Positions 4,630 through 19,905 of a stretch of DNA of 64,000 nt are shown here, one piece after another. The translations under genes were made by a program, and so were the position numbers. The notes under the pieces were generated by a model. The model was not told where the DNA came from. It did no database searches and was given only the letters and a program-made list of their open reading frames with translations. Source of the DNA: a virus. The DNA lies in IMG/VR virus record IMGVR_UViG_3300032296_003307, positions 1-64,000 of that record. The stretch is one strand, 5' to 3'. Each line of letters opens with the position of its first letter. The first letter of the stretch is position 1.

Positions 4630-5391
4630 ATGATTGGACTGATCTCTTTATTAAAAGAAATAGAAGGAACCCCAAAAGCTATTTTTATGGCTGGCCCAGC
4701 AGGATCAGGAAAATCTTATATATCTTCTAAATTAGTCCCCTCAGATTTTACAACAATAAATGTAGATGATACTTATGAGGAATTACTTAAATCCTCAGGT
4801 ATTGGAATGAAATTAGCTCAAATGTCACCTGATGAATTAAAAAAAGCAGGTGAGTTAATGGGTCAAGCAAGAAAAGCTACTGATGTAAAATATCAAGATG
4901 CTCTCAAAGATGCTAAAAATCTTATAATTGATAGTGTAGGAGGTTCTCCTAAAACATTACTTAAGAAAAAACAACAATTAGAGGATTTAGGTTACACTAC
5001 GTTTATGATAATGACTTATGTTTCGCCTATTACCTCACTAGAGCGTAATATGAAGCGAGATAGATCATTGTTACCAAGTATCGTGCTTCGTTCTTGGCGC
5101 GATGTAAATAAAAATATAGACACATATAAGCAAGCTTTTGGAGCCGACTTTGTATTATTGAATTTAGATCCTGATGATGCTAATAAAAACTTTGATGAAG
5201 AATACATTTATCAAACATTTATTAAACCTTTAGGACAAATAGGTAAAGAAAAATCACCTGAGGAAATAGCAAAATCCAAAGCAGAAACCCAACAAATCTA
5301 TTCAGATATAAAACAAACTCTTAATACACAACCTGAGTTTGATACTTTAGAATCAGCCCAACAAAAAATTACTAATTTTATAAACAAATGA
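4630..5391 (+). CDS. P-loop kinase (zeta-toxin-like) with capsid-targeting-like leader
   Basis: A 253-residue protein. The first ten residues, MIGLISLLKE, match the T4 internal-protein leader in length and in ending with a Leu-x-Glu site. A Walker A motif GPAGSGKS follows at residues 22-29 and an acidic VDDTYEE segment near residue 45, as in zeta-toxin or polynucleotide kinase-like ATPases. A late Arg-rich stretch (residues 138-155) could be the lid. I infer a kinase delivered from the capsid; the substrate is not visible. It overlaps the next gene by 4 nt. Confidence 0.6.
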   Translation: MIGLISLLKEIEGTPKAIFMAGPAGSGKSYISSKLVPSDFTTINVDDTYEELLKSSGIGMKLAQMSPDELKKAGELMGQARKATDVKYQDALKDAKNLIIDSVGGSPKTLLKKKQQLEDLGYTTFMIMTYVSPITSLERNMKRDRSLLPSIVLRSWRDVNKNIDTYKQAFGADFVLLNLDPDDANKNFDEEYIYQTFIKPLGQIGKEKSPEEIAKSKAETQQIYSDIKQTLNTQPEFDTLESAQQKITNFINK

Positions 5392-6065
5392 AGTTATTAA
5401 ATCTTTTATTAAAAATTTATAAAGAAGAATATGATTTGAATCTTAAAGAGGGTTTAATCAAAACTACTAATATTGGTAAAACTATAAACTTACTCAGAGC
5501 ATCTTTTGATTTTGGGTTTGAATATCAAAGAGATGATAATACATTTGAAGTAACCTTTCATCAAATTAATAAAAATATTTTAGATAATTTTTTAAAATAT
5601 GTTAATAATTTAGGTTGGTTTCCTTCTTATATTTCTACTCCAGCATATAAAGGAAAATGGAGAGAAAATACATATGATGATTATTTGTCTAAAATTAGGT
5701 TTGAAGCAAAATTTGATGAAGAAATAGTTGAAAAAATACCCCAAATTCTTTATCATATCACTCCAACTCAAAATGTTAATAAAATTTTAAAAATAGGATT
5801 AGTACCTAAATCAAGATCAAAAGTATCTTATCATCCTGAAAGAATTTATTTAGGAAAATCTATCGGTGGTATAGAAAAATTAGCTCCTCAAATGAATTTA
5901 AGAACTGGAGATAAAAATTTTACAATATTAAAAATCAACACTGATCTAATTCCTGGAGAATATTTAAGATTATATACTGATCCTAATTATAATAAAGAAG
6001 CATTTTACACTTTAAATAACATTCCTCCACAAGCAATAGAAAAAATTAAAGACATACAATTATGA
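5388..6065 (+). CDS. ADP-ribosyltransferase/Tpt1-like protein with leader
   Basis: A 225-residue protein with an N-terminal leader (MKLLNLLLKIYKEE, then LNLKEG) carrying Leu/Ile-x-Glu-type sites. The C-terminal half from residue 120 has the layout of an ART-fold domain: LYHITP, then a helix, then IGLVPKSRSK and RIYLGKS, and a late E in KEAFYTLNNIPPQAI. Such domains use NAD to modify proteins or RNA. T4 packages the ADP-ribosyltransferase Alt in its head, so an injected enzyme acting on the host is the leading inference. A catalytic H-Y-E triad is suggested but not proven. ATGA overlaps join it to both neighbours. Confidence 0.55.
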   Translation: MKLLNLLLKIYKEEYDLNLKEGLIKTTNIGKTINLLRASFDFGFEYQRDDNTFEVTFHQINKNILDNFLKYVNNLGWFPSYISTPAYKGKWRENTYDDYLSKIRFEAKFDEEIVEKIPQILYHITPTQNVNKILKIGLVPKSRSKVSYHPERIYLGKSIGGIEKLAPQMNLRTGDKNFTILKINTDLIPGEYLRLYTDPNYNKEAFYTLNNIPPQAIEKIKDIQL

Positions 6066-6424
6066 AAAAATTAATAGATTTACTTAACGAAATCGAAGAA
6101 AAAGACAACAAAAAAGTTGTTAAAGAAGAACCATCTGTAGTAGATGAGGTAGGAAAATTCTTTGTAGTTAAAAAACCTAAAAAAGGTATGACCAAAGAAG
6201 ATATGGTATATGAAGCTACTGTATTCGATGAAGTAAAAATGGAAGAGGTAAAAGGTGTTTACAAAAACAAATCAGAAGCCAATCGCCACGCCACTGCATC
6301 TTTAATGGAATATGAAAAACAACTTCAGGAAATGGAAGCCGCTGTAGAAGAGTTCCGTGCCATGAAGAAAGATATTGAAGCAAAAAGAAAAGAAGCAGCC
6401 GAAAAAGTTAAAAGTCTTAAATGA
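6062..6424 (+). CDS. Small charged coiled-coil protein with leader
   Basis: A 120-residue protein that begins MKKLIDLLNE, an exact ten-residue leader ending in Leu-Asn-Glu. The remainder is very rich in Lys and Glu, with a long predicted coiled coil from about residue 75 to 118. No enzyme motif is visible. Composition resembles T4 internal proteins, which are small, charged and abundant in the head. Function is unknown; packaging is inferred from the leader. Overlaps both neighbours by 4 nt. Confidence 0.55.
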   Translation: MKKLIDLLNEIEEKDNKKVVKEEPSVVDEVGKFFVVKKPKKGMTKEDMVYEATVFDEVKMEEVKGVYKNKSEANRHATASLMEYEKQLQEMEAAVEEFRAMKKDIEAKRKEAAEKVKSLK

Positions 6425-9400
6425 TAGATTCTATCCTAGAGATATTATTTGAGGAAGACTACACAAAAACAGTAGCCATTTATGGTGGTGGTTTTAAACC
6501 ACCTACCAAAGGTCATTTTAATGTTGTTGAAAAAACATTACAAGAATTACCTGATATAGATGAAGCAATTGTTTTTGTTGGTGGAGGAGTTAGAGATGGT
6601 ATTACCCAAGAAGAATCCTTAACCATTTGGAATATCTACAAAAAATATCTTTCAGATAAAGTTACTATAGAACCATCTGTAGCTCCTGTTAAATCAATTT
6701 TAAATTACGCTAAAGAACATCCTGAAGAAAAAGTTTATTGGATTTTAGGTGCTCGTGAAGGTAATGAAGAAGATTTGACAGATATTGCCAACAGAACTAA
6801 ATCAATTGAAAAATATCCTAACATTGAGGTTAAAGTGATTACCTCCTCAGGTGGTGTTAGTGGTACTAAAACAAGAAAAACCTTATTAGACAATAATAAA
6901 GAACAATTTTTCCATCTCATTCCAGATATAGAGGAAAAAGAGGAAATATGGAACATACTTTCTCCAAAGGTTCAAGAATCATTAGAGGAAGGTTTTATAG
7001 AAAATGCACAAGAAAATATGAAAAAGTTGCTTTTAGCCATTAAACAAGAAGGCAGAGAAACAAGAGATGCCTTTAAGTTAGTTTTAAAAGCAGCCAAAGG
7101 TGAAATCCAACTGACAGACGAACAAAAGAAACAAATTGGAGATCAACTAAAAGATGTTTTGAAAATGGTTGGTTTAGTTAGTATTGCTGTTCTTCCTGGT
7201 AGTTTTATTGTTGGAGCTTTAATTAAAATTTTTAAAGCAGAACGTTTAGTATTTCCTTCATCATTGATGAATGAAGACAAACCCTCAGGTGATTCTAATC
7301 CTTTAGGATTAAAATATATTGATATTTGGCATGAGGGTCAATACAAAGCTGAAGAAAATAAAACAGAAGAAGCTATAAAATTAATGATTCAAGCTGCTAA
7401 AGAAGCTGAAGAATTAGAAAGTATTGGAGAAGCAAATTATTATAAAGGAACTATAGCTTGGTTAAAAAAAGATTATAATACTGTTAACAAATACATTAAT
7501 GATAAATTTGTTAAATCAACAGGTAATGATGAAGTATTAAAACGACTTTTAAATAATAAAGATAAATCTTATAAAGAGGCATATAATACTTCTATAAATG
7601 AAGTTGGAGAAGCAAGTGCTAAAGTTTATCCTTTTTCTTCTGATAAAGATCCTAGTGAAATAATAAATTTAGCTAAAAACTTTTTTAGTAAAGGAACCTC
7701 ATCTAAAGTTTATCAACGAGTTTTAACATATACTTTTTCTACAGATAAAGCCGATTACGTTGTTAAATTTAACATAGAGGTAGAACGTCAAACATATGTA
7801 AACTTCTCTAAAAACCCTGATTGGAAACCAGGTCCTCCATATAAAACATATGCTTCTGTTGGTTTCAATATTGAGGGAGAGGAAGAAGATAAAGATACTA
7901 ATTTAAATGAACAGTTTTCTGTTTTATCTACAGTAACAAAAATTATTTTTGATTTTATTGACAAAATAAATGAAGCTGAAGGTAATTTAGTGTCATTAGT
8001 AATTGCTCCTAAAAGTGATACTGGTGAAGAATCATCATTGAATTCTAAACGAGGTAGATTCTACACAGCATACATTCAAAAGAATTTATCCAAATACCCA
8101 GAATATAAAACCAGAGATGGTAAAAATAATTCAGGGGGTGAATATGTAGAAATTTATAAAACAAACAGTGTAAATGAATTAGAAGAAGGTAGAAAAAAGA
8201 AACCTGATCCTAAAAAAGGAACAGGCAAAAAACCTGAAGGATCAGGTCGTAGATTATACACAGATGAAGATCCTAAAGATACTGTTAGTATTAAATTTAA
8301 AACCAAAGAAGATATAGTTGATACTTTAAATAAAAAACAATTTAAAGCTAAATCACATGCTCGTCAATCTCAAATTATTAATTTAATTCATCAACGAGTA
8401 AGAGCCGCTTATGGTAAAGCAAAAGATCCTGAGGTAAAAGCAAGATTAAAACGTGCTTTAGATTATATTGAGTCTCGTAAAGAGGCATCAAAAGAAAAAA
8501 CAGAACGTTTACGTAAAATGAAAGAAGCATCCGACCCACAAGCAGGAACAGCTTTACCTTATGGTTCAGGATTTGCTCCTGTAAAAGAAAGTTACCAATT
8601 TAAAGTTTCCGATAAAAACTATGATGAAGAAGATAATTCTTTAATTTCAGTTGATTATAAATTTTCTACCCCAGATAATGATTATAGAGTTGAATTTTAT
8701 TCAGGTGAATACAATCCTGAAGCTAAAATATTTGATGTTTCTTTTGGAATAGACAAATATGGTTCTAAAATTGATACTTTCCAAATGACAGGTGAAGGTA
8801 ATGCTTTAAGTATTCTTAAAACTATTGTTGATATTATTAAAGATTTTACAAAACGTTTTGAAGTAAATAAGTTAGTTATTGATCCAACAAGCGAAAAACG
8901 TGGAAAAATTTATTCAATGATATTAAAATCATTACCCCCAGACATCTTAAATAAAGTAGAACTTATAAATGAAAATGATTTATTTGGTTTAAATAAATTG
9001 GATAAAGATTTTGTAAAAGAATCCAAAGAATTAAACGTTCAAGATTTAGCTTATAAACAAATACCAGGACTATTAGAAAAAGGAATTAATTATGGATTAG
9101 CCCATTTTAGAGGATTCATGAAATCTTCTTACAAATGGAGTGGTCCAAAGGATAGAAATGATTTTTTTGATTTTATAGAAAATATAAAAGGAGAAATAAA
9201 ACGAGTTCCTTTATCATCTATAAAACCTTCTCAATCAGGTAATGATTACAAAAATTCCTCTTCAGAATATGAAGCAGAAGAATTTCAAAAAATATTAGAT
9301 GGAGAAAAAAATATAGAGGATCATAGGAAAGAAGATTTTTATCCTATATTAGTTAATAAAAGAGATAATAAAATATTAGATGGAAATCATAGACATTATG

Positions 9401-10434
9401 CTTTATCAGCAATAAATTCACCCTATGCTGTAGTATTATATGTAGATGTTCCTAAACAATATATAAATGAAAAATCAGATCCTTTTGGTTTAAATAAATT
9501 TGCAAAAGACTTTGTAAAAGAAGTTTTTGAAGAAACTTGGAATCCCAAAGACTCGTTCGTATCTTTATCCGTATTTATGAAAGACAATGGAATGAACATA
9601 ACCCCATTGCCTAAAATTAAGGTTATATCAGACGACAAAGAAAATGCGTCGCATCTTTTGGGTAAGACTGCTTACTACAATCCAGCAGATAAGTCAATTA
9701 CTCTTTATACCTTTGGAAGGCACCCAAAAGATGTTTTACGCTCTTTTGCTCATGAAATGGTTCACCACGAACAAAATCTTAATGGTACTTTAGGAAATGT
9801 TAGTACTACTAACACAAATGAAGATGGTCATTTAGATAAACTTGAGAGAGAAGCATATGAAAAAGGTAATATCATGTTTAGAAATTGGGAAGATAGTATT
9901 AAGAGTTCAGTAAATGAAATATATTTTTTAGATATTCCTAAATTCAATTATCCTAAAACATTTGTGGATAAATTACGTAAATCCTTAAATGAAATTACTT
10001 TATCAAAAGATAATGCTGTGGAAATAAATGGAGATTTAACTAATGGAAAATTTCAAGTAGGAGATATAATATATGTGTATTCTATAAAAAATATACCAAA
10101 TCCATATAAAGATGAAGGGGAATTTTATAATGTTTCTTTTTATCCTGAAGATAATATAATTTCTGAACCTTTAGAAGGAAAAGAAAATTATGTTAAAATT
10201 TTATCAACAATGTTCAAAATAATATCTGATTTTTCCGAAAAAGAAAAACCAAAATATATAGGAATATCATCTATGGATAACGACAACAATAAAAATTACC
10301 ATAGAGTATATGCCAATTTAACAGATAATAAATTTAACAGAATACCAGGATACTTTAGAAAAGATGTTAGTCTAGGATTTGATACTCCTCAAGGAAAAGG
10401 TAGATTTGTAGTATTAAAAAGAAAAGATGTATAA
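6421..10434 (+). CDS. Giant multidomain protein, probable protease-processed polyprotein
   Basis: A 1337-residue protein. Visible parts in order: leader (1-13); cytidylyltransferase-like nucleotidyltransferase (17-180; GGGFKPPTKGH and GVSGTKTRK); a segment resembling LETM1-like domains (190-283, hydrophobic LVSIAVLPGSFIVGAL); TPR-like helices (300-390); repeat domain copy 1 (400-582); basic Lys/Arg-rich domain (588-705); repeat copy 2 (723-850); ParB/sulfiredoxin-like domain (920-1010; ILDGNHRHYAL); zinc metallopeptidase (1040-1160; HEMVH at 1111-1115); repeat copy 3 (1192-1337). Boundaries carry Leu-Met-Asn-Glu 285, Ile-Asn-Glu 394, Val-Asn-Glu 586, Ile-Asn-Glu 851, Ile-Asn-Glu 1017, Val-Asn-Glu 1166 and Leu-Asn-Glu 1191. 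I infer cleavage by the prohead protease into several injected proteins. Confidence 0.6.
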   Translation: MIDSILEILFEEDYTKTVAIYGGGFKPPTKGHFNVVEKTLQELPDIDEAIVFVGGGVRDGITQEESLTIWNIYKKYLSDKVTIEPSVAPVKSILNYAKEHPEEKVYWILGAREGNEEDLTDIANRTKSIEKYPNIEVKVITSSGGVSGTKTRKTLLDNNKEQFFHLIPDIEEKEEIWNILSPKVQESLEEGFIENAQENMKKLLLAIKQEGRETRDAFKLVLKAAKGEIQLTDEQKKQIGDQLKDVLKMVGLVSIAVLPGSFIVGALIKIFKAERLVFPSSLMNEDKPSGDSNPLGLKYIDIWHEGQYKAEENKTEEAIKLMIQAAKEAEELESIGEANYYKGTIAWLKKDYNTVNKYINDKFVKSTGNDEVLKRLLNNKDKSYKEAYNTSINEVGEASAKVYPFSSDKDPSEIINLAKNFFSKGTSSKVYQRVLTYTFSTDKADYVVKFNIEVERQTYVNFSKNPDWKPGPPYKTYASVGFNIEGEEEDKDTNLNEQFSVLSTVTKIIFDFIDKINEAEGNLVSLVIAPKSDTGEESSLNSKRGRFYTAYIQKNLSKYPEYKTRDGKNNSGGEYVEIYKTNSVNELEEGRKKKPDPKKGTGKKPEGSGRRLYTDEDPKDTVSIKFKTKEDIVDTLNKKQFKAKSHARQSQIINLIHQRVRAAYGKAKDPEVKARLKRALDYIESRKEASKEKTERLRKMKEASDPQAGTALPYGSGFAPVKESYQFKVSDKNYDEEDNSLISVDYKFSTPDNDYRVEFYSGEYNPEAKIFDVSFGIDKYGSKIDTFQMTGEGNALSILKTIVDIIKDFTKRFEVNKLVIDPTSEKRGKIYSMILKSLPPDILNKVELINENDLFGLNKLDKDFVKESKELNVQDLAYKQIPGLLEKGINYGLAHFRGFMKSSYKWSGPKDRNDFFDFIENIKGEIKRVPLSSIKPSQSGNDYKNSSSEYEAEEFQKILDGEKNIEDHRKEDFYPILVNKRDNKILDGNHRHYALSAINSPYAVVLYVDVPKQYINEKSDPFGLNKFAKDFVKEVFEETWNPKDSFVSLSVFMKDNGMNITPLPKIKVISDDKENASHLLGKTAYYNPADKSITLYTFGRHPKDVLRSFAHEMVHHEQNLNGTLGNVSTTNTNEDGHLDKLEREAYEKGNIMFRNWEDSIKSSVNEIYFLDIPKFNYPKTFVDKLRKSLNEITLSKDNAVEINGDLTNGKFQVGDIIYVYSIKNIPNPYKDEGEFYNVSFYPEDNIISEPLEGKENYVKILSTMFKIISDFSEKEKPKYIGISSMDNDNNKNYHRVYANLTDNKFNRIPGYFRKDVSLGFDTPQGKGRFVVLKRKDV

Positions 10435-10975
10435 ACTTAAATTAACAGACATATACAAACAAATTAAAGAAGAGGAAACACAACCTCAATCAGCTCAACA
10501 ATATACAATTTATTGTGATATGGATGGAGTTATTGCTGACTTTGATAAACGATTTAAAGATTTAAATCCTGAACATTTATCTGCTGCCCAATACCAAACA
10601 AAATATGGTATAGAAAAGTTTTGGGATTTTATAGATGAAGAAAATAAAGTAAAATTCTGGGTTGGTATTCCTTGGATGCCTGATGGAAAAGAACTTTGGG
10701 ATTATATTAAAAAATACAAACCAACCTTGTTATCAGCCCCTTCTAAAAAACCACAATCTCGTTTAGGAAAAAGATTATGGGTTAAAAACAATATTCCAGG
10801 AACTCCTTTGATTTTAGCAGCAGCTGATAAAAAACAGAATTATTCTGGAGGAAATAAAATACTTATCGACGACAGAAAAGATAATGTTGACCAATGGCGC
10901 TCACAAGGTGGTATTGGGATAGCACATACCTCTGCTCAAGATACAATTAAACAATTACAAAATTTAGGATTATAA
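10427..10975 (+). CDS. 5'(3')-deoxyribonucleotidase-like HAD phosphatase with leader
   Basis: A 182-residue protein. After a 25-residue leader region (MYKLKLTDIYKQIKEEE) comes the HAD motif I, YCDMDGVIADF (about residues 28-38), typical of mitochondrial-type nucleotidases. Then follow a WDFID segment, LLSAPSKK (motif II), and ILIDDRKDN (motif IV) near the end. The family removes phosphate from nucleoside monophosphates. The N-terminal extension before motif I is what marks it as candidate capsid cargo. It overlaps the giant gene by 8 nt. Confidence 0.7.
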   Translation: MYKLKLTDIYKQIKEEETQPQSAQQYTIYCDMDGVIADFDKRFKDLNPEHLSAAQYQTKYGIEKFWDFIDEENKVKFWVGIPWMPDGKELWDYIKKYKPTLLSAPSKKPQSRLGKRLWVKNNIPGTPLILAAADKKQNYSGGNKILIDDRKDNVDQWRSQGGIGIAHTSAQDTIKQLQNLGL

Positions 10976-10980
10976 TTATT

Positions 10981-11607
10981 ATGTATAGATTAAGAGAAAA
11001 TGAAGAAGATGCTCAATCAAGACTTGCCCTTGATTTTGACATTATTTTAACACCAAAAACCAGTGTTGAAGATGCTGTAAAAGCTTTAGAAAACATTGAT
11101 AACTATGGTGCTTATGTTTCTAATATGAGAAATAAAGCATCAATTGAAAAAGCAATAGAAATGCATTTTGGAAACATGGATGATGAAGGTAAAAAAATAT
11201 CACCTGCCAAAAAAGCATCTATTGAAAAACAAAGAGGTGAAAAATTTCCTGTTAAAACAAAACAAGCAATTGATGATTTAGTTAAATCATTAACCAGCAA
11301 ACCAAATCTTTTAAACTATACAGTTAAAGGTAATACTCTTGTTTTCCCTAAAGGAAAAAATCCTTCAAAAGATGTAACCAAAAAAATAATCAAAACTGTA
11401 ATGGACAATGCTGATATTACTTTTTCAGTAAAAGAAAAAGAATCAGTAAGTGAAGATGCAATTACAGATAAAATTAAATCATCTTTTATGTACCAAGTTA
11501 CTGGTGGTAAAAAAGGTGAGCCAATGTCTGCTGGTAAAAAATTACCTGCTAACACTAAAATTAAAAAATCTGAACTAAAAGAAATTATTAAAAATTTCAA
11601 CAAATAA
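10981..11607 (+). CDS. Lys-rich protein of unknown function, possible leader
   Basis: A 208-residue basic protein beginning MYRLRENEED, a short form of the leader pattern. It has two Lys-rich helical regions (residues 60-100 and 115-150) and a late IKKSELKEIIKN helix. No catalytic motif is seen. It overlaps the next start by one base (TAATG). The position inside the leader-bearing block suggests a head-internal or DNA-binding protein; this is inference. Confidence 0.45.
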   Translation: MYRLRENEEDAQSRLALDFDIILTPKTSVEDAVKALENIDNYGAYVSNMRNKASIEKAIEMHFGNMDDEGKKISPAKKASIEKQRGEKFPVKTKQAIDDLVKSLTSKPNLLNYTVKGNTLVFPKGKNPSKDVTKKIIKTVMDNADITFSVKEKESVSEDAITDKIKSSFMYQVTGGKKGEPMSAGKKLPANTKIKKSELKEIIKNFNK

Positions 11608-12179
11608 TGAAAAACCAATCAGTTTTAAAAAAAGAGTTTAAACAGAGAGATGTTCAACGTCTCCGTAACCTTGTTCAAGGCAAGTACGGAGAAAAATCTA
11701 CTGTTGGAACTGGTTATCAAAAAGCAAAAGAATTTCATTCCGAAGGTGATGTTTGGGAAGAGGATGGAAGAACTTGGACTATTAAAAATGGTTTAAAACA
11801 AAACATTACTAAATTAGATAAAGCAAAAGAAGGCATTGTATTGCCTTTGTTTTGTCCTACTTGTTCTCGTACAATGAAACCACATTTGGACAAAAAATGG
11901 TTTGTAATGTATGGACACTGTTTTGATTGTCAAGTGGATTTTGAAGCAAAACTTAAAAAAGAAGGAAAATTAGAGGAATTTGAAAAACAAGTAATAAATG
12001 ACCATTTGGAAGGTACTATCAATGATTTTGAAGCATGGTTTGATGAATTAATTAATTCAAAAGACCAATTCATTACAGAGACAGGCGATATTGAAAAATG
12101 GGATGGTTCCGGTAAAGAGCAGTTGTTAAAATATAAACAAGAAGCATTAGAATATTTAAACAAACAACGAAAAGAATAA
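11607..12179 (+). CDS. Zinc-ribbon protein
   Basis: A 190-residue protein. A CPTC motif (about residue 92) and a CFDC motif (about residue 113) form a four-cysteine zinc ribbon. The N-terminal third has a SVLKKEFKQRDVQRLRN helix and a conserved DVWEEDGRTWTIKNG segment. Similar proteins occur in other marine T4-like phages, from memory, without assigned function. It lacks a clear Leu-x-Glu leader. Role unknown; nucleic-acid or protein binding through the ribbon is likely. Confidence 0.55.
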   Translation: MKNQSVLKKEFKQRDVQRLRNLVQGKYGEKSTVGTGYQKAKEFHSEGDVWEEDGRTWTIKNGLKQNITKLDKAKEGIVLPLFCPTCSRTMKPHLDKKWFVMYGHCFDCQVDFEAKLKKEGKLEEFEKQVINDHLEGTINDFEAWFDELINSKDQFITETGDIEKWDGSGKEQLLKYKQEALEYLNKQRKE

Positions 12180-12796
12180 TGGAAATTACAATGATTACAA
12201 CCATTCTTGTTGCTTTAATTACAGCCGTAATTGGTCCCGCTGTTTTAGAATGGGTTAAAGCAAAATTGAGAAAAAATGAAGACAAAGACTCTTCAGTAAA
12301 AGAAGCAATTGATGTCAATGAATTAGTTGACCATCAATTAGATCAATTGTTAGAGGAATTAGGTTGTGATCGAATTTGGGTTGGACAATTTCATAATGGT
12401 GGTCATTTTTATCCTACAGGAAAATCAATCCAGAAATTTTCTATTTTCTACGAAAAATTAACCCCAAGTACCTCAGCAATCCAACATATATTTCAACAAA
12501 TACCTGTTTCATTATTTCCAAAAGCTTTATCTAAGCTTTACAAAGATGGAGAATTGGCTGTTGTAAATTACAATACTGATGAAACTTATGATTTAAGTAT
12601 GTTTTCTAAAGACTATGGAACCAAATCTTTTTATATGTTAGCCATAGATGATTTGGACGAACATTTCATAGGAGTAATGGGAATTGCATTCAATGATAAA
12701 GAACATAAATTATCCAAAGAAGAATGGATATTTATACGACAGAAAGTAGGGGCGATTGGTTCCCTTTTAACAGACTATTTATACAAGAAAAAATGA
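12179..12796 (+). CDS. Membrane-anchored GAF-like protein
   Basis: A 205-residue protein with one hydrophobic N-terminal segment (residues 5-25, TTILVALITAVIGPAVLEW) followed by positive charges, which suggests an inner-membrane anchor with the rest in the cytoplasm. Residues 50-200 look like a GAF-type sensor fold, with IWVGQFHNGGHFYPTG near residue 67 and GVMGIAFNDKEH near the end. No output domain is attached. It could sense a small ligand or dock on a host complex. Start and stop overlap both neighbours. Confidence 0.5.
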   Translation: MEITMITTILVALITAVIGPAVLEWVKAKLRKNEDKDSSVKEAIDVNELVDHQLDQLLEELGCDRIWVGQFHNGGHFYPTGKSIQKFSIFYEKLTPSTSAIQHIFQQIPVSLFPKALSKLYKDGELAVVNYNTDETYDLSMFSKDYGTKSFYMLAIDDLDEHFIGVMGIAFNDKEHKLSKEEWIFIRQKVGAIGSLLTDYLYKKK

Positions 12797-13548
12797 AAGA
12801 CATAAACAAAATTAAAGAATTTTTCTCTAAACCTTTAGAAGAAGCAAAAAGAGATATTGACAAGATTAAAAAACAATTAGATGCTTTAGGTGTTAAATAT
12901 GAAATGTCAACCACTGATAAAGTTAGACCATTTAAAGTGATTTACAAACCAGTTAATAAATCAGATGAATTTTATGATAAATTTGAAGACATTGTTGATT
13001 TATTTAACTTAAAAAGTTTTGTAAAATCATCAATGAATGAAGCTAAAAAAGAAGATGCCGTTGATACAATTACAATGGATATTCCTTTATTCCTTCGTAT
13101 GTTAGAATATTCAAGAGAAGATGCCTCTCAAGACATGGATTTACATGATGTTACCGAAAAAGCAAATAAATTAGGTAAAGAAAGAGGTATTTTATCCATG
13201 GAAGACTATGAAGAAATTGTAGGTGCTGCCGAAGATATTAACGAACTTTCAGATTATTTTAAACGTAGAAAAGCCCAAGACGATTACGCTGTTAATAAAA
13301 AAGACAAACCAGCAAAACCTTATAATCCCAACTCTTCAGGCAAAACAGACTACATGAAGCGTAGAGAAAAAGAATTAAATGAAAGAATTTCCGAAGCATT
13401 AAATAAAATCAACGAAGAACTTTGCCCTGCTGGTAAAGCATACATTAAAAAAAGAAAAGCAGCTGGTGAAAAATCATCTGCTTACCTTTCAGGTCGTGCT
13501 GTAAAAGTATGTAAAGGCCAAATGTCAGGTAAAGCTAAGAAAAAATAA
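12793..13548 (+). CDS. Basic multi-segment protein with internal cleavage-like site
   Basis: About 251 residues from the ATG at 12793, which overlaps the upstream TGA as ATGA; the longer frame from 12724 runs back inside the upstream gene and is rejected. It starts MKDINKIKEFFSKPLEE, then a small alpha/beta-like segment to residue 80, then SSMNEAKKEDA, a [LIVM]NE-type site. The C-terminus is a basic tail with two Cys (LCPAGKAYIKKRKAAG, SGRAVKVCKGQ) that recurs in large phages as a small DNA-binding-like domain. Function unknown; leader and site suggest packaged, processed cargo. Confidence 0.5.
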   Translation: MKDINKIKEFFSKPLEEAKRDIDKIKKQLDALGVKYEMSTTDKVRPFKVIYKPVNKSDEFYDKFEDIVDLFNLKSFVKSSMNEAKKEDAVDTITMDIPLFLRMLEYSREDASQDMDLHDVTEKANKLGKERGILSMEDYEEIVGAAEDINELSDYFKRRKAQDDYAVNKKDKPAKPYNPNSSGKTDYMKRREKELNERISEALNKINEELCPAGKAYIKKRKAAGEKSSAYLSGRAVKVCKGQMSGKAKKK

Positions 13549-13838
13549 TGGACTTAATTAGATTACAAGAATTAGTATCTGAATCATTACGCGACTGGTT
13601 TAAAAAAGAAGACTGGGTGCGTATTGATACTCAAGGTAACATTACTGGTCCTTGTGGTACTATGAAAAAGGGTCAAGCAACAACTCGTTGCCTACCTCGT
13701 AAAAAAGCTCAATCATTATCTAAAAAAGAAAGAGCGGCAACTGCCCGCAAAAAAGTAGCTGGTTCTAAAAAAGGAGAACAGTTTGTAAAAAACACAGAAA
13801 AAGCAGAATACAAAAAAGGTACATATCATAAAAAATAA
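13548..13838 (+). CDS. Small basic protein with leader and Cys/Lys-rich domain
   Basis: A 96-residue protein. The leader MDLIRLQELVSE is followed by a compact basic domain: W.RID..GNI.GPCG...KG..TTRCLPRKKA, then a Ser/Lys/Arg-rich helix. This small domain is frequent at the ends of phage proteins, from memory. The strong positive charge fits DNA binding in the head. Start overlaps the previous stop (TAATGG). Confidence 0.5.
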   Translation: MDLIRLQELVSESLRDWFKKEDWVRIDTQGNITGPCGTMKKGQATTRCLPRKKAQSLSKKERAATARKKVAGSKKGEQFVKNTEKAEYKKGTYHKK

Positions 13839-13840
13839 CA

Positions 13841-13848
13841 TATTTATA
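13841..13848 (+). promoter_or_regulatory. TATTTATA box
   Basis: Located 10 nt before the ATG at 13859, just after the previous gene. Confidence 0.5.
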
Positions 13849-13858
13849 CACATATATT

Positions 13859-14827
13859 ATGAAAAAATTTGACTTAAAAAAGATGATAGCTGAAAACAAG
13901 GCTACATTCTTTTCTTCCTTGAACGAAGGATACGATGAATTCAAAAGAGCAGAAAAAGGCTCTAAAGATGTAACCGCTAAAGACAAAGGCGAAGAAGAAG
14001 TTTACGGAGCCGGAGTTAAAAAAGGTGAAGAAATCGAAAAGAAAAAAATGAAAGAAAATTTAGATTCAAGTTATGACGATTTATATGATTTTGTAGACCA
14101 AAAAATGGTTGAAGGTGATGAAGAAGCCGAAATGCTATTAAACTCAAACCCAAGTTATGATGATTTATATGATTTTGTAGACCAAAAAATGGTTGAAGGT
14201 GATGATGAAGCAGAAGCATTATTAAATAAAATAAATAATATTAATGAAAATAAATCTTCAAAAATGAAAATGTCTGAATTAAAAGCCAAAATCAAAGAAA
14301 TGGTTTTAGCTGAAATGACTTTAGATGTTGATAATATGGAAGATGCCCCAGAATCAGAAGTTGATTTCTTGACTGAATTAGAAGCAATGTTAGATGAGGC
14401 TGATAAAGACACAGAAAAAGATACAGCCGAAACCGATGCTGATGTAACAATAGACGATACAGAAACTATTGATACTGAAACAACAACCGAAGTAGATCCT
14501 AATGTAAAAGCAGTACAAGATGCTTTAACACAAGCTCAAGCAGCTGCTCAAAAATTAGGTGATAAAAAATTAACAGATCAAATTGGTAACACAATTACCT
14601 TCTTCACTCGTACTCACGTTGTTGAAAAACCAGGTGGAGCAGTAGCAGAAAACTTAAATGAAGGTAGAGCAACTTTACCAAAGTTTAAACAATATTTCAA
14701 AATCATGATTGAAAACCAACCAAATGATGTTTTAGATTTAATTATGGATCTTCTTGAACATGATGGTAAAAATTTTGATGAATGGACAAGTAATATTGCT
14801 GATGATATAATAGATACTTTAGGTTAA
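13859..14827 (+). CDS. Acidic leader protein with 28-residue tandem repeat
   Basis: A 322-residue, strongly acidic protein. Leader MKKFDLKKMIAENK is followed by SSLNEGYDEF, a [LIVM]NE site at Glu23. Residues 70-126 hold two copies of a 28-residue unit starting SYDDLYDFVDQKMVEGD. A second leader-like segment (MKMSELKAKIKEMVLAE) follows near residue 137, then a run of Asp/Glu/Thr, then NLNEGRATLPKF and a helical end. The duplicated leader suggests more than one processed product. Role unknown; an internal head protein is inferred. Confidence 0.5.
   Translation: MKKFDLKKMIAENKATFFSSLNEGYDEFKRAEKGSKDVTAKDKGEEEVYGAGVKKGEEIEKKKMKENLDSSYDDLYDFVDQKMVEGDEEAEMLLNSNPSYDDLYDFVDQKMVEGDDEAEALLNKINNINENKSSKMKMSELKAKIKEMVLAEMTLDVDNMEDAPESEVDFLTELEAMLDEADKDTEKDTAETDADVTIDDTETIDTETTTEVDPNVKAVQDALTQAQAAAQKLGDKKLTDQIGNTITFFTRTHVVEKPGGAVAENLNEGRATLPKFKQYFKIMIENQPNDVLDLIMDLLEHDGKNFDEWTSNIADDIIDTLG
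14068..14235 (+). repeat. Two 84-bp direct repeats inside the acidic gene
   Basis: Two in-phase copies with period 84 bp (starts at 14068 and 14152), encoding a 28-residue unit. DNA identity is highest over the first 60 bp, which points to a recent duplication. Confidence 0.8.
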
Positions 14828-14832
14828 AATAA

Positions 14833-14898
14833 AAAGATAATAATAAACCTTTAGTTAATGAATCAGTATTCCCAATGTTAAAGAAAATTTTAAAATAA
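14833..14898 (+). pseudogene. Possible gene remnant
   Basis: A 21-codon open stretch before a TAA at 14896 reads NKPLVNESVFPMLKKILK at its end, with no start codon at its head. It contains a VNES site like those in the leader proteins and the scaffold, so it may be the tail of a deleted leader-family gene. Short and speculative. Confidence 0.25.
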
Positions 14899-14904
14899 AA
14901 GTAT

Positions 14905-15075
14905 ATGAACACACAAGAAATCTTTGAAAAAATTGAAGCTCTTTATGAGACATTCAAAGCAGAACATGCTGGAAAATCTAAAGCAGCTCACGGTCGTGCT
15001 AGAAAAGTCCTAGGTGAAATCAAGAAATTGGTAGCCGAATACCGTAAAGCCTCTATTGACGAGGACAAAAAGTAA
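14905..15075 (+). CDS. Histone H1-like (Hc1-type) protein
   Basis: A 56-residue protein. It is a single long helix with mixed charge: EKIEALYETFKAEHAG, then KSKAAHGRARKVLGEIKKL, then VAEYRKASIDEDKK. The GRARK.LGEIKKL.AEYRKAS pattern matches the short histone H1-like proteins that are widespread in Bacteroidota. These bind DNA. Here it could compact the phage genome in the head or displace host nucleoid proteins. It has no clear Leu-x-Glu leader. It lies between two leader-bearing genes and ends 5 nt before the next ATG. Confidence 0.7.
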   Translation: MNTQEIFEKIEALYETFKAEHAGKSKAAHGRARKVLGEIKKLVAEYRKASIDEDKK

Positions 15076-15080
15076 TTAAA

Positions 15081-16109
15081 ATGGCCAAACGCGATTTAAC
15101 CCCAGAGGAATTAGCTAAAGTTGAAGCAAAAATGAAAACTTTTATGGCTAATAAAGACTCTTGGGTTAAACGCTATGGTAAAGACGCAGAAAAAGTAATG
15201 CGAGGTCGTGCCATCACAAGCGTAAAAAAAGAAACCGAAACAATGAATAAACAAAAATTAAAAGAATTAGTTAGAAAATCTTTAATGAACGAAGCCGATA
15301 TTGAAGTTGGTGCCGAAGAATATTTTGGAGAAAAAGACTTATCCAAAGCATCAATGATGTTGGACGATCTCGAAACAAAATTAAAAAATCATGATTGGTT
15401 TTATATGATGTCTGATGATAACAGAGCTTATACTAAAGGCTCTTTAGAACAACAATCCATCAGAAACATTATGAAATCTCTTGAAGACATGGGATATGGT
15501 GAGGATGCAAAATCACTCTTCAACCAATATGCTCCTAATGGTCCAGGAGGAAGTACCTTAAAAATGAAAGAAGCTAAAGGTAAAGACATGGATAAAGATG
15601 GAGACATCGATTCAGATGATTACTTGGCTGCTCGTGATGCTGCTATTAAAAAAGCAATGCAAAAAGAAGACATTGATTTAGGTCACGAAGACAACGAACC
15701 ACATATGATTAAAGGCGAATTATACCAAATTGGTAAATACGCTATGGAATTATATGCTGCTTTAGAAGAATTAGAAGAAATGGGTGGTGAATATGATTTT
15801 CCTGCTTGGTGGCAATCAAAAATTACTACAGCCAAAAACATGATATCAGGTGCTAAACATTATTTAGAATTTGAAATGAATGAACCAAAAATTGATGCTG
15901 CTGTAGATGCTTTAACAGGTGAAGAATACCATGAAGGTGAGCCAATGATGGAAAAAAAGTTAACCAAAGCAGAAAAAGCCAAAAAAGAAGATATAGTTAA
16001 AGGAATGAAAAAAAGCTTTAAAGGTGATGAATCAGCAATGTATGCTATTGCCACTGCCAAAGCTAAAAAAGTAGCTGAAACTTTAGCTAAAAAACTAAAA
16101 AATGACTAA
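15081..16109 (+). CDS. Multi-segment protein with EF-hand-like loop and internal leader
   Basis: A 342-residue protein. Residues 1-50 are a basic helical segment; a leader-like stretch follows from Met55 (MNKQKLKELVRKSLMNEADIE), so an alternative start at 15243 or an N-terminal extension is possible. Around residue 170 the loop DMDKDGDIDSDDYLAA matches a calcium-binding EF-hand/dockerin loop. Residues 208-275 form a helical domain containing FPAWWQSKI. The end is Lys-rich (KKSFKGDESAMYAIATAKAKK). These modules recur in large phage proteins. Function unknown; capsid cargo is inferred. Confidence 0.5.
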   Translation: MAKRDLTPEELAKVEAKMKTFMANKDSWVKRYGKDAEKVMRGRAITSVKKETETMNKQKLKELVRKSLMNEADIEVGAEEYFGEKDLSKASMMLDDLETKLKNHDWFYMMSDDNRAYTKGSLEQQSIRNIMKSLEDMGYGEDAKSLFNQYAPNGPGGSTLKMKEAKGKDMDKDGDIDSDDYLAARDAAIKKAMQKEDIDLGHEDNEPHMIKGELYQIGKYAMELYAALEELEEMGGEYDFPAWWQSKITTAKNMISGAKHYLEFEMNEPKIDAAVDALTGEEYHEGEPMMEKKLTKAEKAKKEDIVKGMKKSFKGDESAMYAIATAKAKKVAETLAKKLKND

Positions 16110-16587
16110 AGACGAGTTAAAAGAAAAAATCAAAGTACTTGTTCAACAAGTATATAAACCTGATACTCTACAGGTACAGGATAAAATTTCTTTAGATGCT
16201 CCCAAATTTCCAGTTTTAGAAAAATTCCCTACCTTAAAACAAGTTATTGTTAATTTATTAACAAACCAATACGAAATATTTGTAAAAGACATTCAATGGG
16301 TTGCTCCAAAGCCAACTACTTTCCGAGTTATACTTGCCAATGGAGAACCTTTTACGTTAATTTATACTCCAAGAAGCTGGGTGGCTCAAGTAGAAGGTAA
16401 AAAATACTACTTGTTAAACTTAAGCGAAGAAGAATCAGCAACCGAAGCCATTTCAAGAATATTAGCCTATGGGACGCAAGAAGAAACCACACCAGAAGAA
16501 GGATCAGCAGGAGGAACCGAAACAGGCGGTGAAACAGGCGGAGGTGAAGAAGAAACTCCTGCACCTGAAGAAACACCATCAGCTTAA
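16102..16587 (+). CDS. Leader-like protein with Glu/Gly/Thr-rich tail
   Basis: A 161-residue protein beginning MTKDELKEKIKVLVQQVYK, an amphipathic helix similar to the leaders. Residues 30-115 form a small alpha/beta segment (FRVILANGEPFTLIYTPRSW). The last 35 residues are low-complexity Glu, Gly, Thr and Pro. It overlaps its upstream neighbour by 8 nt. No family is recognised. Confidence 0.45.
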   Translation: MTKDELKEKIKVLVQQVYKPDTLQVQDKISLDAPKFPVLEKFPTLKQVIVNLLTNQYEIFVKDIQWVAPKPTTFRVILANGEPFTLIYTPRSWVAQVEGKKYYLLNLSEEESATEAISRILAYGTQEETTPEEGSAGGTETGGETGGGEEETPAPEETPSA

Positions 16588-16589
16588 TT

Positions 16590-17702
16590 ATGGACGCCTT
16601 AGATATATTTTTCAAAAAGTTCTCTTATAAATTCCCTAAAGGATACCCTGACATGAATAATGAACAGGATAGAGTATTATTGGTAAATTTATTAGAGCAA
16701 ATAGGATTCCCTACTTACAATACTATTATAGTGAAAGAATCAGCCCAAGACATTAAAAATGTTCTTATTGATGCCGGTTACAGTCCTGAAGATATCGTAA
16801 TCAAGAGCAGTAAACAAATACGTTTATTAACAAAAGGTAATGAACGTAAATCCACTATGGATAAACTTGTTCAAGATTTAGGTTATATTTATGACCCTAA
16901 TTTTAAAGGTTCTTCTTTAGGAGCTATTATAGCAGATGACGGAACAGCCATTATTGTTAAGCCAAAAGAAAAACAAGGTACTGGTTCTGCTGGTTTAGAT
17001 AATGAGCAAATGTTGGTTGATTCTATTAATCAATATACCGAAGAAGGTCCTATTAAAGTAGTATTTAAAGGAAGTAATAAAACTATTTCTTTTGATAATG
17101 TAACCAAAGCAAAATCAGTAGGAACAGCAACAGCAGGAAATAAAAAATCAGATGTAGCTCTATATTCTGGTGATAAAATAATTGGTAATCTTTCTCTTAA
17201 AAAGGCAAATGCCTCTATGTGGGAAAGTGCTGATAAAAGATACAAAGAATTAGTTAACAAACTTTCCGAAAAATTAATAAACAATCCCTTTCCTACTATT
17301 GGATTAAGAGAAACAGATAAAAAAGATATTTATCGTTTATATAATCCTAAAACAGGAACAGATTTAAGTGGAATTATTATTACAGATCTTCCGGACAATG
17401 AAAATGAATCAATTGTTTTTGGAACCGATGATCCTAAAGTTCAAGTAATTAAACATACATTCCAACCAAATGATTTTTCTTTCAATAATGGAGTTCTAAC
17501 AATTAATTCAGGCACTACATTTACTGATTTATCTGATATTGAAGGTACAGAATATGAACCTATTTTAGTTTTAAGACATGATGTTACTCGTACAGCAAGT
17601 AAAGGTTTAAGACCAATTGTTTACAATAAAAGCCATGGATACAGAGATGGTGAAATAAAAGGATCTCAAGCCGAGTTAACTTATGATCAAGCTATCTCTT
17701 AA
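16590..17702 (+). CDS. Possible restriction-endonuclease-fold protein
   Basis: A 370-residue protein without a Leu-x-Glu leader. Residues 180-225 read KKSDVALYSGDKIIGNLSLKKANASMWESADKRY. A conserved Asp followed about 10 residues later by S-L-K-K resembles the D...(S/E)xK core of PD-(D/E)XK nucleases, and the following helix fits that fold. The N-terminal part has repeated small alpha/beta elements. The assignment is tentative; it could also be a non-catalytic relative. It lies between two leader-type genes. Confidence 0.4.
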   Translation: MDALDIFFKKFSYKFPKGYPDMNNEQDRVLLVNLLEQIGFPTYNTIIVKESAQDIKNVLIDAGYSPEDIVIKSSKQIRLLTKGNERKSTMDKLVQDLGYIYDPNFKGSSLGAIIADDGTAIIVKPKEKQGTGSAGLDNEQMLVDSINQYTEEGPIKVVFKGSNKTISFDNVTKAKSVGTATAGNKKSDVALYSGDKIIGNLSLKKANASMWESADKRYKELVNKLSEKLINNPFPTIGLRETDKKDIYRLYNPKTGTDLSGIIITDLPDNENESIVFGTDDPKVQVIKHTFQPNDFSFNNGVLTINSGTTFTDLSDIEGTEYEPILVLRHDVTRTASKGLRPIVYNKSHGYRDGEIKGSQAELTYDQAIS

Positions 17703-17710
17703 TATTTATA
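17703..17710 (+). promoter_or_regulatory. TATTTATA box
   Basis: Located 3 nt before the ATG at 17714 and immediately after the previous stop codon. If it acts as a -10 element the transcript would be leaderless. Confidence 0.5.
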
Positions 17711-17713
17711 ACT

Positions 17714-18520
17714 ATGGATTTAAAAAAATTAATTAAAGAAGTATTAGAGGATAAAGATTGCTGCAAAGCAAAAAAACCTACTAAAGCGCCTATATTAAAC
17801 GAAAGCTTAGCTCCGCATGAGATATTGTCTGAGGGATTAAAATATCATATAGACAATAAAAAACCGCTTACCGAGCATGTTTACCGTGCTGGTTCAACTA
17901 ATTATTTCCATTTATGGGCTGAAGCCAGAGCACTATATTCTCGTGGTATTCTAGATTTTTCAGGTGATGATTTAGCAATTTTAACTGAAACCCATTTAGG
18001 TGAATTTGGTTACATAACTGAAATAGAAATAGGAGACAAAGTTAAAGCATCTAAAGAATATGGTGGATTATCAGGTGAGGTAGTAGATATTAGAGGTTCT
18101 TTTATTGTTGTTAAAACAAAAGAAGGAAATCAATCATATCATGAATCTGATTTAAAAGTATTAAACAAAGAAGCTAAAAAAGTTCCATTAGATTTTATAA
18201 TGGAAGAACTAGAAGAAGAATTAGACGAAGCTAAATCTAAACCAAAAAAGAAAAATCCCCCAATTGGAAAACCAATGCGTGGTGGTTCTAAAAAGTTTTA
18301 TGTTTATGTAAAAGCACCTGGTGGTAAAATTAAAAAAGTATCATTTGGTCAAGCAGGTATGTCTGCTAAAATTAATAACCCTGAAGCACGTAGAGCATTT
18401 GCTGCTAGACACGATTGTAAAAATAAAAAAGATAGAACAAAAGCATCTTATTGGTCTTGTCGTTTACCTCGTTATGCTAAATTATTAGGATTAAAGTCTA
18501 ATTTTTCAGGATTTTGGTAA
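17714..18520 (+). CDS. Leader protein with conserved phage basic C-terminal domain
   Basis: A 268-residue protein. Leader MDLKKLIKEVLED, then a CC pair, then ILNESLAPHEILSEGLKYHI with two [LIVM]xE sites. Residues 60-95 hold a conserved VYRAGSTNYFHLWAEARALY segment. The C-terminal 80 residues form a basic domain: KFYVYVKAPGGKIKKVSFG, then NPEARRAFAARHDCK and YWSCRLPRYAK. This C-terminal domain is widespread in T4-like marine phages, from memory, without known function. Capsid packaging is inferred from the leader. Confidence 0.5.
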   Translation: MDLKKLIKEVLEDKDCCKAKKPTKAPILNESLAPHEILSEGLKYHIDNKKPLTEHVYRAGSTNYFHLWAEARALYSRGILDFSGDDLAILTETHLGEFGYITEIEIGDKVKASKEYGGLSGEVVDIRGSFIVVKTKEGNQSYHESDLKVLNKEAKKVPLDFIMEELEEELDEAKSKPKKKNPPIGKPMRGGSKKFYVYVKAPGGKIKKVSFGQAGMSAKINNPEARRAFAARHDCKNKKDRTKASYWSCRLPRYAKLLGLKSNFSGFW

Positions 18521-18849
18521 TGATTAAATTTTCAAATATATTAAATGAGGTAAAAAAAGTTAAAGAAACTTTTGAAGAATTTGCTGGAATTAGAGGTAAA
18601 GGTGCTGCTAAAATAGCCGAAAATGCAGAAAAAAAAGGTGGTTTAGCACTTTTAACTTGGCACCATTTTAAGGTGAAAGCTCCCTACTACAAAAAAGCAA
18701 ATGAAGGTAAACTTGATTTAAAAGAAGCCGAAAAAGAATTTAAAGAAACATATAAAAAAATATCCTTAAACATGAGTCAAATCGAATTTCAAAGAGAGGT
18801 TGGTCGTTTAGAGGTTTTAGGTGAGCTTTTAATTAGAAATAAAAAGTGA
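18520..18849 (+). CDS. Small helical protein with ten-residue leader
   Basis: 109 residues from the ATG that overlaps the previous stop (TAATG); an upstream TTG at 18514 adds two residues and would spoil the leader, so I reject it. The protein starts MIKFSNILNE, an exact ten-residue leader. The rest is helical, with GAAKIAENAEKKGGLALLTWHHFKVKAPYY in the centre. Similar small proteins occur in other T4-like phages. Role unknown. Confidence 0.5.
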   Translation: MIKFSNILNEVKKVKETFEEFAGIRGKGAAKIAENAEKKGGLALLTWHHFKVKAPYYKKANEGKLDLKEAEKEFKETYKKISLNMSQIEFQREVGRLEVLGELLIRNKK

Positions 18850-19367
18850 TTAAATTATTAGATATATTAAGAGAAGCTAAACAAGCAGGTACTTTATATC
18901 ATTATACAACAATATTATCTTTACTTAAAATACTTGATAGTAATGTTCTAGGTGATGAAAGTCTTGGAAAATACGCTACAGTTTCTCTCACCAGAGATAA
19001 AAATTTTCATAAGAGAACTAGTATAATACCTACTGAATGTTGTATTGTTATAGATGGAGATAAACTTTCAAATAATTATAAGATTGTTCCTTACCAATGG
19101 AATGCAGCACATTTTAGTGGAAAAAAATCCACAGATACTGGAAAAATTGAGGACCAGATGGAAGAAGAAGTACAAGGTTCAATCAAAGGAGTTAGTAAAT
19201 ATATTAAAGAAATTATTATATATGAACTAGAACTTGATCCTTTACCATTTGATGATGATTTTACTTATGAGGCATCTAAAATAATTGATAAACCTAGTGA
19301 TGAAATAACAGCAAATGATATTATTGAATGGATTGAAAAAAAGGGATATAAAGTATCATTAGCATAA
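18846..19367 (+). CDS. ART-like protein with ten-residue leader, GTG start
   Basis: A 173-residue protein. The GTG start overlaps the previous TGA as GTGA, and gives MIKLLDILRE, an exact ten-residue leader, so this start is well supported. Residues 15-60 read TLYHYTTILSLLKIL, then LGKYATVSLTRDKNFH, which resembles the beginning of ADP-ribosyltransferase-type toxin domains (H-Y-T, then S-L-T-R). A late acidic IKEIIIYELELD segment could supply the catalytic Glu. It is the second ART-like protein of the block. Confidence 0.5.
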   Translation: MIKLLDILREAKQAGTLYHYTTILSLLKILDSNVLGDESLGKYATVSLTRDKNFHKRTSIIPTECCIVIDGDKLSNNYKIVPYQWNAAHFSGKKSTDTGKIEDQMEEEVQGSIKGVSKYIKEIIIYELELDPLPFDDDFTYEASKIIDKPSDEITANDIIEWIEKKGYKVSLA

Positions 19368-19378
19368 AATATATTAAC

Positions 19379-19648
19379 ATGATTAAATTATTAGAAGTAT
19401 TAAACGAATCTCCTCAAAGCAGCTATCCTCCCTACATGTATTCTCCTATTGGGTTTGGATGTCATGTATGTAAATATCATTACATAGAAGAAGGAAAACA
19501 TATGTGTTCCAACAAATACTATCAAGAATACATTTCAGAACAGTTTCCTGATTTAGAGGATCCTGCTGAATTAGTAGATAATGAAGGTAATCCGATTAAA
19601 GATCCTTCAAAATGGTGTTCAAATTGGTTTATGCCTAAAGGTAAATGA
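19379..19648 (+). CDS. Small Cys-rich protein with ten-residue leader
   Basis: An 89-residue protein that starts MIKLLEVLNE. It then has GCHVCKYHY, HMCSNKYY and a late KWCSNWF, so four cysteines that may bind zinc or an iron-sulphur centre. No known enzyme is recognised. The ATG at 19379 follows an AATATATTAAC sequence, a weak relative of the TATTTATA box. It overlaps the next gene by 4 nt (ATGA). Confidence 0.5.
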   Translation: MIKLLEVLNESPQSSYPPYMYSPIGFGCHVCKYHYIEEGKHMCSNKYYQEYISEQFPDLEDPAELVDNEGNPIKDPSKWCSNWFMPKGK

Positions 19649-19905
19649 GACCTTACATAGACTTAGAGGTTACAGATTCTTATATTATTCGTGAATTTAG
19701 CGAAAATATAGACCCTATAGAATTACTATGGCATCGTGATGATGAAAACAGAACAGTTGAAATAATTGGTGAAACAGATTGGAAATTACAATTAGATAAT
19801 CAATTACCAACCTCTATAAATCAACCCATATTTATACCAAAACACGAATGGCATCGTGTTATTAAAGGAACAGGAACACTAAAATTAAAAATATACAAAT
19901 CATGA
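19645..19905 (+). CDS. Small cupin-like protein
   Basis: An 86-residue protein. The core LLWHRDDENRTVEIIGETDWKLQLDNQLP and late IFIPKHEWHRVIKG carries His and Asp residues spaced like a metal-binding cupin barrel. It has no leader. A partial second copy lies at 20672. Such proteins are frequent in large phages, from memory; function unknown. It overlaps the next gene by 4 nt. Confidence 0.5.
   Translation: MRPYIDLEVTDSYIIREFSENIDPIELLWHRDDENRTVEIIGETDWKLQLDNQLPTSINQPIFIPKHEWHRVIKGTGTLKLKIYKS

Follow-up and report, generated by a model that had tools for sequence, protein, structure and literature searches.

In bacteriophage T4, the prohead protease gp21 cleaves after L/I-x-E, and the capsid-targeting sequence, comprising residues 1–10 of the internal protein IPIII, combines positions used for targeting (4 and 7) with those used for processing (8 and 10); Alt is cleaved at both ends (PMC9026906). 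In the T4 record, IPII and IPIII carry MKTYQEFIAE, gp24 MAKINELLRE and Alt MELITE, and gp23 reads ...SFLTE/AEIGG. In T4, replacing the P1 Glu by Asp blocks processing. The polyvalent proteins of phages and conjugative elements are thought to enter the host together with the DNA; their processing has been ascribed to built-in metallopeptidases, and processing during virion assembly has been suggested only for a few cases with a fused assemblin-like peptidase (Iyer et al., 2017; PMC5512222). Here, we analyse a stretch of 64,000 nucleotides (hereafter, the window) covering positions 1–64,000 of the IMG/VR virus record IMGVR_UViG_3300032296_003307, which spans 268,739 bases and contains a T4-type head gene set, and focus on a protein of 1337 residues encoded at positions 6421–10434 (plus strand, as are the modules, head genes and leader-bearing genes of the window described below). 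This protein is probably (about 0.82) a gp21-processed polyprotein of head cargo, that is, of effectors packaged with the genome and injected.

Under this reading, the gp21-type protease of the phage, a member of the Peptidase_S77 family, would cut after [LIVMF]-x-E in the linkers during head maturation. The cuts would free approximately nine modules, among them a nucleotidyltransferase, a basic domain, a zinc metallopeptidase, a ParB-like domain and DUF6934 domains, along with several short peptides. Once freed, the proteins would be retained alongside the DNA inside the head and would then reach the next host together, as early effectors. The module borders, their motif, the exchange at the bond, the leaders of stand-alone genes and the protease with its motif at the gp23 cut position are direct observations; by analogy with T4, we infer that the protein is packaged, that it is indeed cut, and that its products are injected and active as effectors.

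Recurrent sites at the module borders

The open reading frame is single and intact and starts with ATG, in agreement with the coordinates and length proposed in an earlier note on this DNA. That note drew attention to a motif, [LIVM]NE, in the linkers, and its P1 glutamates (E285, E394, E586, E851, E1017, E1166 and E1191) are positioned as it listed them. The polyprotein contains nine [LIVM]NE compared with 1.8 in composition-preserving shuffles, of which 0/5000 reached nine; in the remainder of the window, [LIVMF]NE occurs 27 times against 18.8 expected. The explanation that the motif simply reflects a composition rich in N and E was ruled out by the shuffles and by permuted-motif controls. 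Seven of the nine sites lie at module borders; the other two, LNE497 and INE518, absent from the earlier list, are inside a domain, with E497 and E518 falling within a predicted helix (residues 495–520) of the first DUF6934-like domain, or at its start, in the AlphaFold2 (AF2) model. All seven listed sites fall in low-confidence linkers of that model (predicted local distance difference test, pLDDT, <50), which lends modest support, given that about half of the chain is likewise below 50. As a description of the borders, [LIVM]NE proved real but too narrow: relatives display [LIVMF]-x-E, in which the middle residue is N roughly half of the time. Because this is the border signal in the relatives, LFE11, LEE190, LEE589, VKE723, VKE867 and VKE1034 are also regarded as border sites.

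Exchange of modules at the bond

Three scans of IMG/VR yielded approximately 140 loci with 100 multi-module proteins, 85 of them non-redundant, in which the same modules are arranged in more than 45 orders. The additional modules found in these relatives comprise a domain resembling ART (Tox-ART-HYD1, 7e-5), a zinc ribbon and another module with HExxH, here given the working name GRYD after its first residues, for which a PDB sequence search returned chance matches only. The loci L004 and L005 exemplify the exchange. In both, residues 1–285 of the window protein (97% identical) are joined straight to residue 392 onward (93%), and the helical 'TPR-like' module (286–394) is missing, so that MNE285 abuts VGEASAK; the seam reads SSLMNE/VGEASAK, as opposed to SSLMNE/DKPSGD...TSINE/VGEASAK in the window, and the break is placed exactly at the site, also at the DNA level.

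Across all pairs of the 85 relatives, 3414 of 5237 homology breakpoints, counts that are not independent between pairs, lie within 8 residues of [LIVMF]xE, compared with 1390 expected. The control motifs N[LIVMF]E, [LIVMF]NK and [LIVMF]ND are depleted near the breakpoints (0.41, 0.77 and 0.79, respectively). The permuted motifs NE[LIVMF] and EN[LIVMF] are likewise enriched there, probably because the seam often precedes a hydrophobic residue or N, and for this reason a fixed-register junction test was used in place of the breakpoint count. When each distinct upstream context is counted once and the basic module is excluded, because its border had been placed using the motif itself, [LIVMF]xE stands exactly before the module in 63 of the 68 internal junctions, which represent five module families. 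At these junctions, P3 is hydrophobic in 94% of cases (background 26%), P1 is Glu in 93% (background 8%) and P2 is Asn in 50%; the flanking positions are mostly near background.

Such seams could, in principle, be mere points of recombination in an injected multidomain polyvalent protein that stays whole and is never cut, as in the case of the phage N4 virion RNA polymerase. The exchange is real and might exploit short stretches of DNA shared at the seams, such as AATGAA at the L004 and window junctions, and Iyer et al. (PMC5512222) describe packaged polyvalent proteins that stay uncut. However, the P3 codons at the junctions vary and differ in their first bases (TTA, CTA, ATT, ATA, GTA and GTT), and P3 and P1 are conserved but P2 varies freely, so the constraint appears to act on the protein rather than on the DNA. 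Furthermore, the metallopeptidase module is followed by a site in 28 of the 29 distinct cases where it is internal, compared with 0 of 17 cases in which this module is the protein end (P = 1e-11), a contrast that is somewhat overstated by the short tails, yet far from chance (the test used a 30-residue window, chance 0.46; terminal tails are at most 16 residues long, chance ~0.26). A seam serving recombination alone would not vanish after a terminal metallopeptidase. Stand-alone GRYD proteins end with ...LNLPPIQ, and internal copies read ...LNLPAIQE before the next module. Considering also that the same motif closes the leaders of stand-alone genes at the same residue and fits the class of site typical of the protease family represented in this phage, an uncut chain appears unlikely.

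Leaders of the proposed polyproteins and of stand-alone genes

Modules of the proposed processed polyprotein are also encoded elsewhere by stand-alone genes, in which a 10-residue leader abuts the module at the same residue as the internal bond; examples include MIKLIDILKE/GAYDS, MIKLKHILTE/AIIGNSIKCDNCGW, MIKLKDILLE/AKQVGNLYHFTS and MIKLIDILTE/ADPKTGTGKKP. These leaders have hydrophobic residues at positions 4, 7 and 8 and Glu10, the exact spacing of T4 IPIII. Those of the polyproteins are more varied and amphipathic: [LIVMF]xE is present within the first 20 residues in all 56 distinct relatives that start with the nucleotidyltransferase, and the exact T4-type spacing (±1) in only 17 of the 56. 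Two leader types, MIKLIDILKE and DPFGLNAYARELAKGLEE, can be distinguished; in the window leader, MIDSILEILFE, the T4-type spacing is shifted by one. Because the same bond bounds every module, modules could be gained, lost, swapped or moved to and from stand-alone genes without harm to the mature ends. There are also intermediates (L100:8890–9681 and L142:2312–3232) that consist of a leader and two or three modules and lack the metallopeptidase.

These smaller proteins are pertinent to the idea that the linkers are cut not by the S77 protease but by the built-in zinc metallopeptidase modules. Self-processing by zincins has been proposed for this protein class by Iyer et al. (2017; PMC5512222), and most members indeed contain a metallopeptidase module. 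Yet the same sites are present in the multi-module proteins devoid of it, stand-alone genes lacking the metallopeptidase share the leader motif, and that motif corresponds both to the gp21 class and to the cut site in gp23, making self-processing highly improbable.

Of the 25 genes at 4630–24506, 6 show the leader pattern, compared with none of the 43 other genes of the window, which include the primase, exonuclease and tail genes, in line with the claim of the earlier note that the motif ends several leaders. Across all loci, 263 of 1957 open reading frames show the pattern compared with 31 when the N-termini are shuffled. This distribution is relevant to yet another possibility, namely, that the polyprotein, cut or not, is left unpackaged and exerts its role late in infection, inside the infected cell. 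Several modules do look metabolic (the nucleotidyltransferase and the adjoining 5'-nucleotidase), and we found no virion data. Against a cytoplasmic role speak the similarity of the leader to the T4 head propeptides, its absence from the replication and tail genes, and the activity of T4 gp21 in the prohead core (PMC9026906); we hold this alternative to be decidedly unlikely.

The head protease and its probable substrates

The predicted cutter, a prohead protease of the T4 gp21 family, is encoded at 31270–31872 (PF03420, 1.8e-29) and retains the motifs ELDHP and GVSSRG (ELNHP and GVSSRG in T4). Of the 12 related records with a length of 100 kb or above, 11 encode an S77 protease. The major capsid protein gp23 is encoded at 33213–34976 (PF07068, 1.9e-75). 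In an alignment, the T4 gp23 cut position (FLTE) corresponds to LVTE in the window, IVSE in Flavobacterium phage immuto and LINE in the second gp23 of the record, which indirectly suggests that the protease of this clade has an [LI]xE specificity. Between the two genes, a probable scaffold or core protein (32081–33172; no family match) contains 35 [LIVMF]xE against 17.7 expected, an excess that is to be anticipated because a core protein would be degraded. The same protein holds repeated MDEA units.

Two S77 proteases that diverge from each other are encoded in the 268,739-base record, as are two copies of gp23 (G000:C1, 31–35 kb and 233–238 kb; L152, L153, L157 and L158). Two phages may have been merged in this assembly as a chimera, or the record may contain two head gene sets.

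Weighing the evidence

The earlier note had suggested that one precursor is packaged and several effectors are released from it by the prohead protease. This suggestion is supported by the 63 of 68 junctions, the matching leaders, a site that appears after the metallopeptidase only before a further module, the S77 protease and the gp23 motif, from which we infer packaging and cleavage. Several considerations weigh on the other side. [LIVMF]xE is a short motif with many occurrences within domains, and the selectivity of cutting would, accordingly, have to come from exposure. The junctions share descent, so the P values overstate their independence, and the AF2 model of the full chain is poor (mean pLDDT 54), which makes the low-confidence placement of the sites weak support. 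A function can be assigned to only a few of the modules that would be freed, and a search found neither proteomics nor cleavage data on these phages.

Composition of the proposed polyprotein

Several disparate domains are combined in one polypeptide: a nucleotidyltransferase, basic, zincin, ParB-like and DUF6934 domains. The N-terminal leader, which ends with LFE11 (6421–6453), is a predicted capsid-targeting propeptide. The nucleotidyltransferase module (residues 12–190; 6454–6990) is of the HIGH type with a NadD/PPAT-like fold; the label given to it in the earlier note is corroborated by phrog_3041 (1.1e-7) and by a Foldseek match to NadD (8aih, E = 6e-6), and the columns of its motifs GGFKPPTKGH and SGTKTR are invariant in an alignment of relatives. 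The two following helical modules had been described as LETM1-like and TPR-like, labels for which database searches gave no support (TPR_16 at E = 0.09 only; none in Pfam for LETM1). The 'LETM' module (191–285; 6991–7275) starts after LEE190 and ends with MNE285, and its copies in relatives start after IKE or VKE; the 'TPR-like' module (7276–7602) ends with INE394.

The 'three copies' of another domain mentioned in the earlier note correspond to DUF6934-like modules, the second of which is well matched, the third weakly and the first by motif only. The first copy (395–589; 7603–8187) ends with VNE586/LEE589, and the junction [LIVM]NE precedes VGEA or IGDA in six of six distinct cases. It is followed by the basic module (590–723, ending with VKE723; 8188–8589), a stand-alone gene behind MIKLIDILxE in relatives; another copy of this module, 73% identical, resides beside a zinc ribbon module at G000:C1:131584–131916 (L013). 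The second DUF6934 module (724–851; 8590–8973; PF22028, 3e-8) ends with INE851. The next module (868–1017, ending with INE1017; 9022–9471) has been labelled ParB/sulfiredoxin-like, for which phrog_8071 (8.4e-4) offers weak support; a related stand-alone gene (L100:7748–8890) starts with MIKLTDILNE.

The zinc metallopeptidase module (1035–1166, ending with VNE1166; 9523–9918) contains HEMVH, and its designation as a metallopeptidase is supported by the invariant HExxH and by IrrE-like viral matches. H93, E94, H97 and E124 of the module are invariant in 25 relatives, and this minimal metallopeptidase is modelled by AF2 with a pLDDT of 83. It had no match in a PDB sequence search, and Foldseek comparison with PDB structures gave weak selecase/IrrE matches only. 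A spacer peptide (1167–1191; 9919–9993) ends with LNE1191, DUFc junctions reading LNE, LHE and INE, and leads to the third DUF6934-like module (1192–1337; 9994–10431; PF22028, 0.008; phrog_16075, 0.004). No defence-related families were found by PADLOC.

The repeated phrase FGLNK..KDFVKE, spotted earlier in two linkers, is genuine (854–867 and 1022–1034) and has 44 distinct copies in relatives. In the window, it forms part of two linkers that recur in relatives, NDLFGLNKLDKDFVKE (852–867, ending with VKE867; 8974–9021) and KSDPFGLNKFAKDFVKE (1018–1034, ending with VKE1034; 9472–9522). The phrase belongs to an element of the form DPFGLN.YA.EL..GLEE or DPFGLNELA..FVKE, ends in xxE in 43 of the 44 distinct copies and precedes at least five kinds of modules (metallopeptidase, basic, GRYD, ParB-like and 5'-nucleotidase). 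It may serve as an internal targeting helix. We can also envisage, with less than even odds, a plug-in cargo system common to T4-like phages of aquatic Bacteroidetes and others. In such a system, any module flanked by two [LIVMF]xE bonds and preceded either by an N-terminal leader of 10 residues or by an internal helix, DPFGLxxYAxELxxGLEE, acting as a second capsid-targeting element would be packaged in a fixed ratio, released by the head protease and delivered into the host; hosts would then encounter a constantly reshuffled set of effectors.

Neighbouring genes with leaders

The gene following the polyprotein (10427–10975) encodes a 5'-deoxynucleotidase (phrog_2643, 1e-24) that carries a leader of its own, MYKLKLTDIYKQIKEE. 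Fusions of this enzyme into the polyprotein, behind the recurrent phrase, occur in at least seven relatives (L105, L115, L118, L134, L136, L137 and L144). Upstream, at 4630–5391, lies a gene for a zeta-toxin/AAA kinase (PF06414, 4.8e-9), whose leader, MIGLISLLKE, is common to 19 open reading frames of related loci and which likely represents separate head cargo. By virtue of the leader pattern, the small genes at 6062–6424 (MKKLIDLLNE) and 19379–19648 (MIKLLEVLNE) are likewise predicted to encode separate cargo. The ART-like module is a stand-alone gene here (18846–19367; MIKLLDILRE/AKQAGTLYHYTT), with homologous internal copies in L005, L075, L118 and L134.

In relatives, a short mobile peptide, EGTCGYDTDVKTGKKLDTPGGLEE, appears repeatedly, both between modules and following leaders (for example, L084:748, L089:8890, L100:8890 and L006). 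Finally, a small protein encoded at 13548–13838 (SLRDWFKKEDWVRIDTQGNITGPCG...) is shared with a zinc-ribbon fusion in L106 (L106:10399–10803), a hint that cassette exchange might extend to other genes of the cluster.

Implications and comparison with known systems

If our interpretation is correct, a tailed phage loads and delivers its early effectors in a fixed ratio by means of a protease-cut polyprotein, a strategy familiar from RNA viruses. The border rule would also uncover hidden effectors, in that, in these genomes, any sequence located between two [LIVMF]xE seams or behind MIKLxxILxE is predicted head cargo. Many uncharacterised phage genes would thereby gain a testable role, that of proteins packaged and injected early, with ART-like proteins, the kinase, the metallopeptidase and the nucleotide enzymes among the candidates. 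We found no description of prohead-protease-delimited polyproteins in the open-licence literature, which, given that scope, is weak evidence of novelty.

The nearest isolate, Flavobacterium phage immuto (MW353175), has an orthologous locus with the exonuclease upstream and the 5'-nucleotidase downstream. Its protein QQO91862 shares the nucleotidyltransferase, metallopeptidase and GRYD modules as well as a VMAE/GRYD junction, and the phage encodes an S77 protease. By contrast, QQO91862 has a Pol-beta-like N-terminus, a different set of modules and no [LIVMF]NE, and is annotated only as an NMN adenylyltransferase. The ejection proteins of SPN3US and phiKZ (gp245/gp175; PMC10052503) are comparable in being head cargo processed by a gp21 relative at several positions per protein after a short motif ending in Glu. 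There, however, the cuts strip propeptides and leave one mature protein, whereas the polyprotein would give rise to a set.

Polyvalent proteins (PMC5512222) resemble the polyprotein in uniting unrelated enzymatic domains in one chain, including metallopeptidase, ART, ParB-like and Pol-beta nucleotidyltransferase domains; the parts of their description consulted mention neither prohead-protease sites that bound each module nor an exchange of modules with leader-bearing stand-alone genes, as proposed here. T4 IPI–III and Alt display the same leader of approximately 10 residues with hydrophobics at 4, 7 and 8 and Glu10, S77 cutting after [LI]-x-E and diverse cargo with the leader alone in common; in T4, these are separate genes with one leader each, whereas the polyprotein strings many modules behind a single leader and has a site at each junction. 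The earlier note saw in the locus a delivery logic not known from T4; the principle, in fact, is present in T4 for single proteins, as the internal protein leaders and Alt attest, and it is the multi-module chain that stands as new. The polyprotein combines features of the T4 internal proteins and of the polyvalent proteins, the multi-module chain being its novel part.

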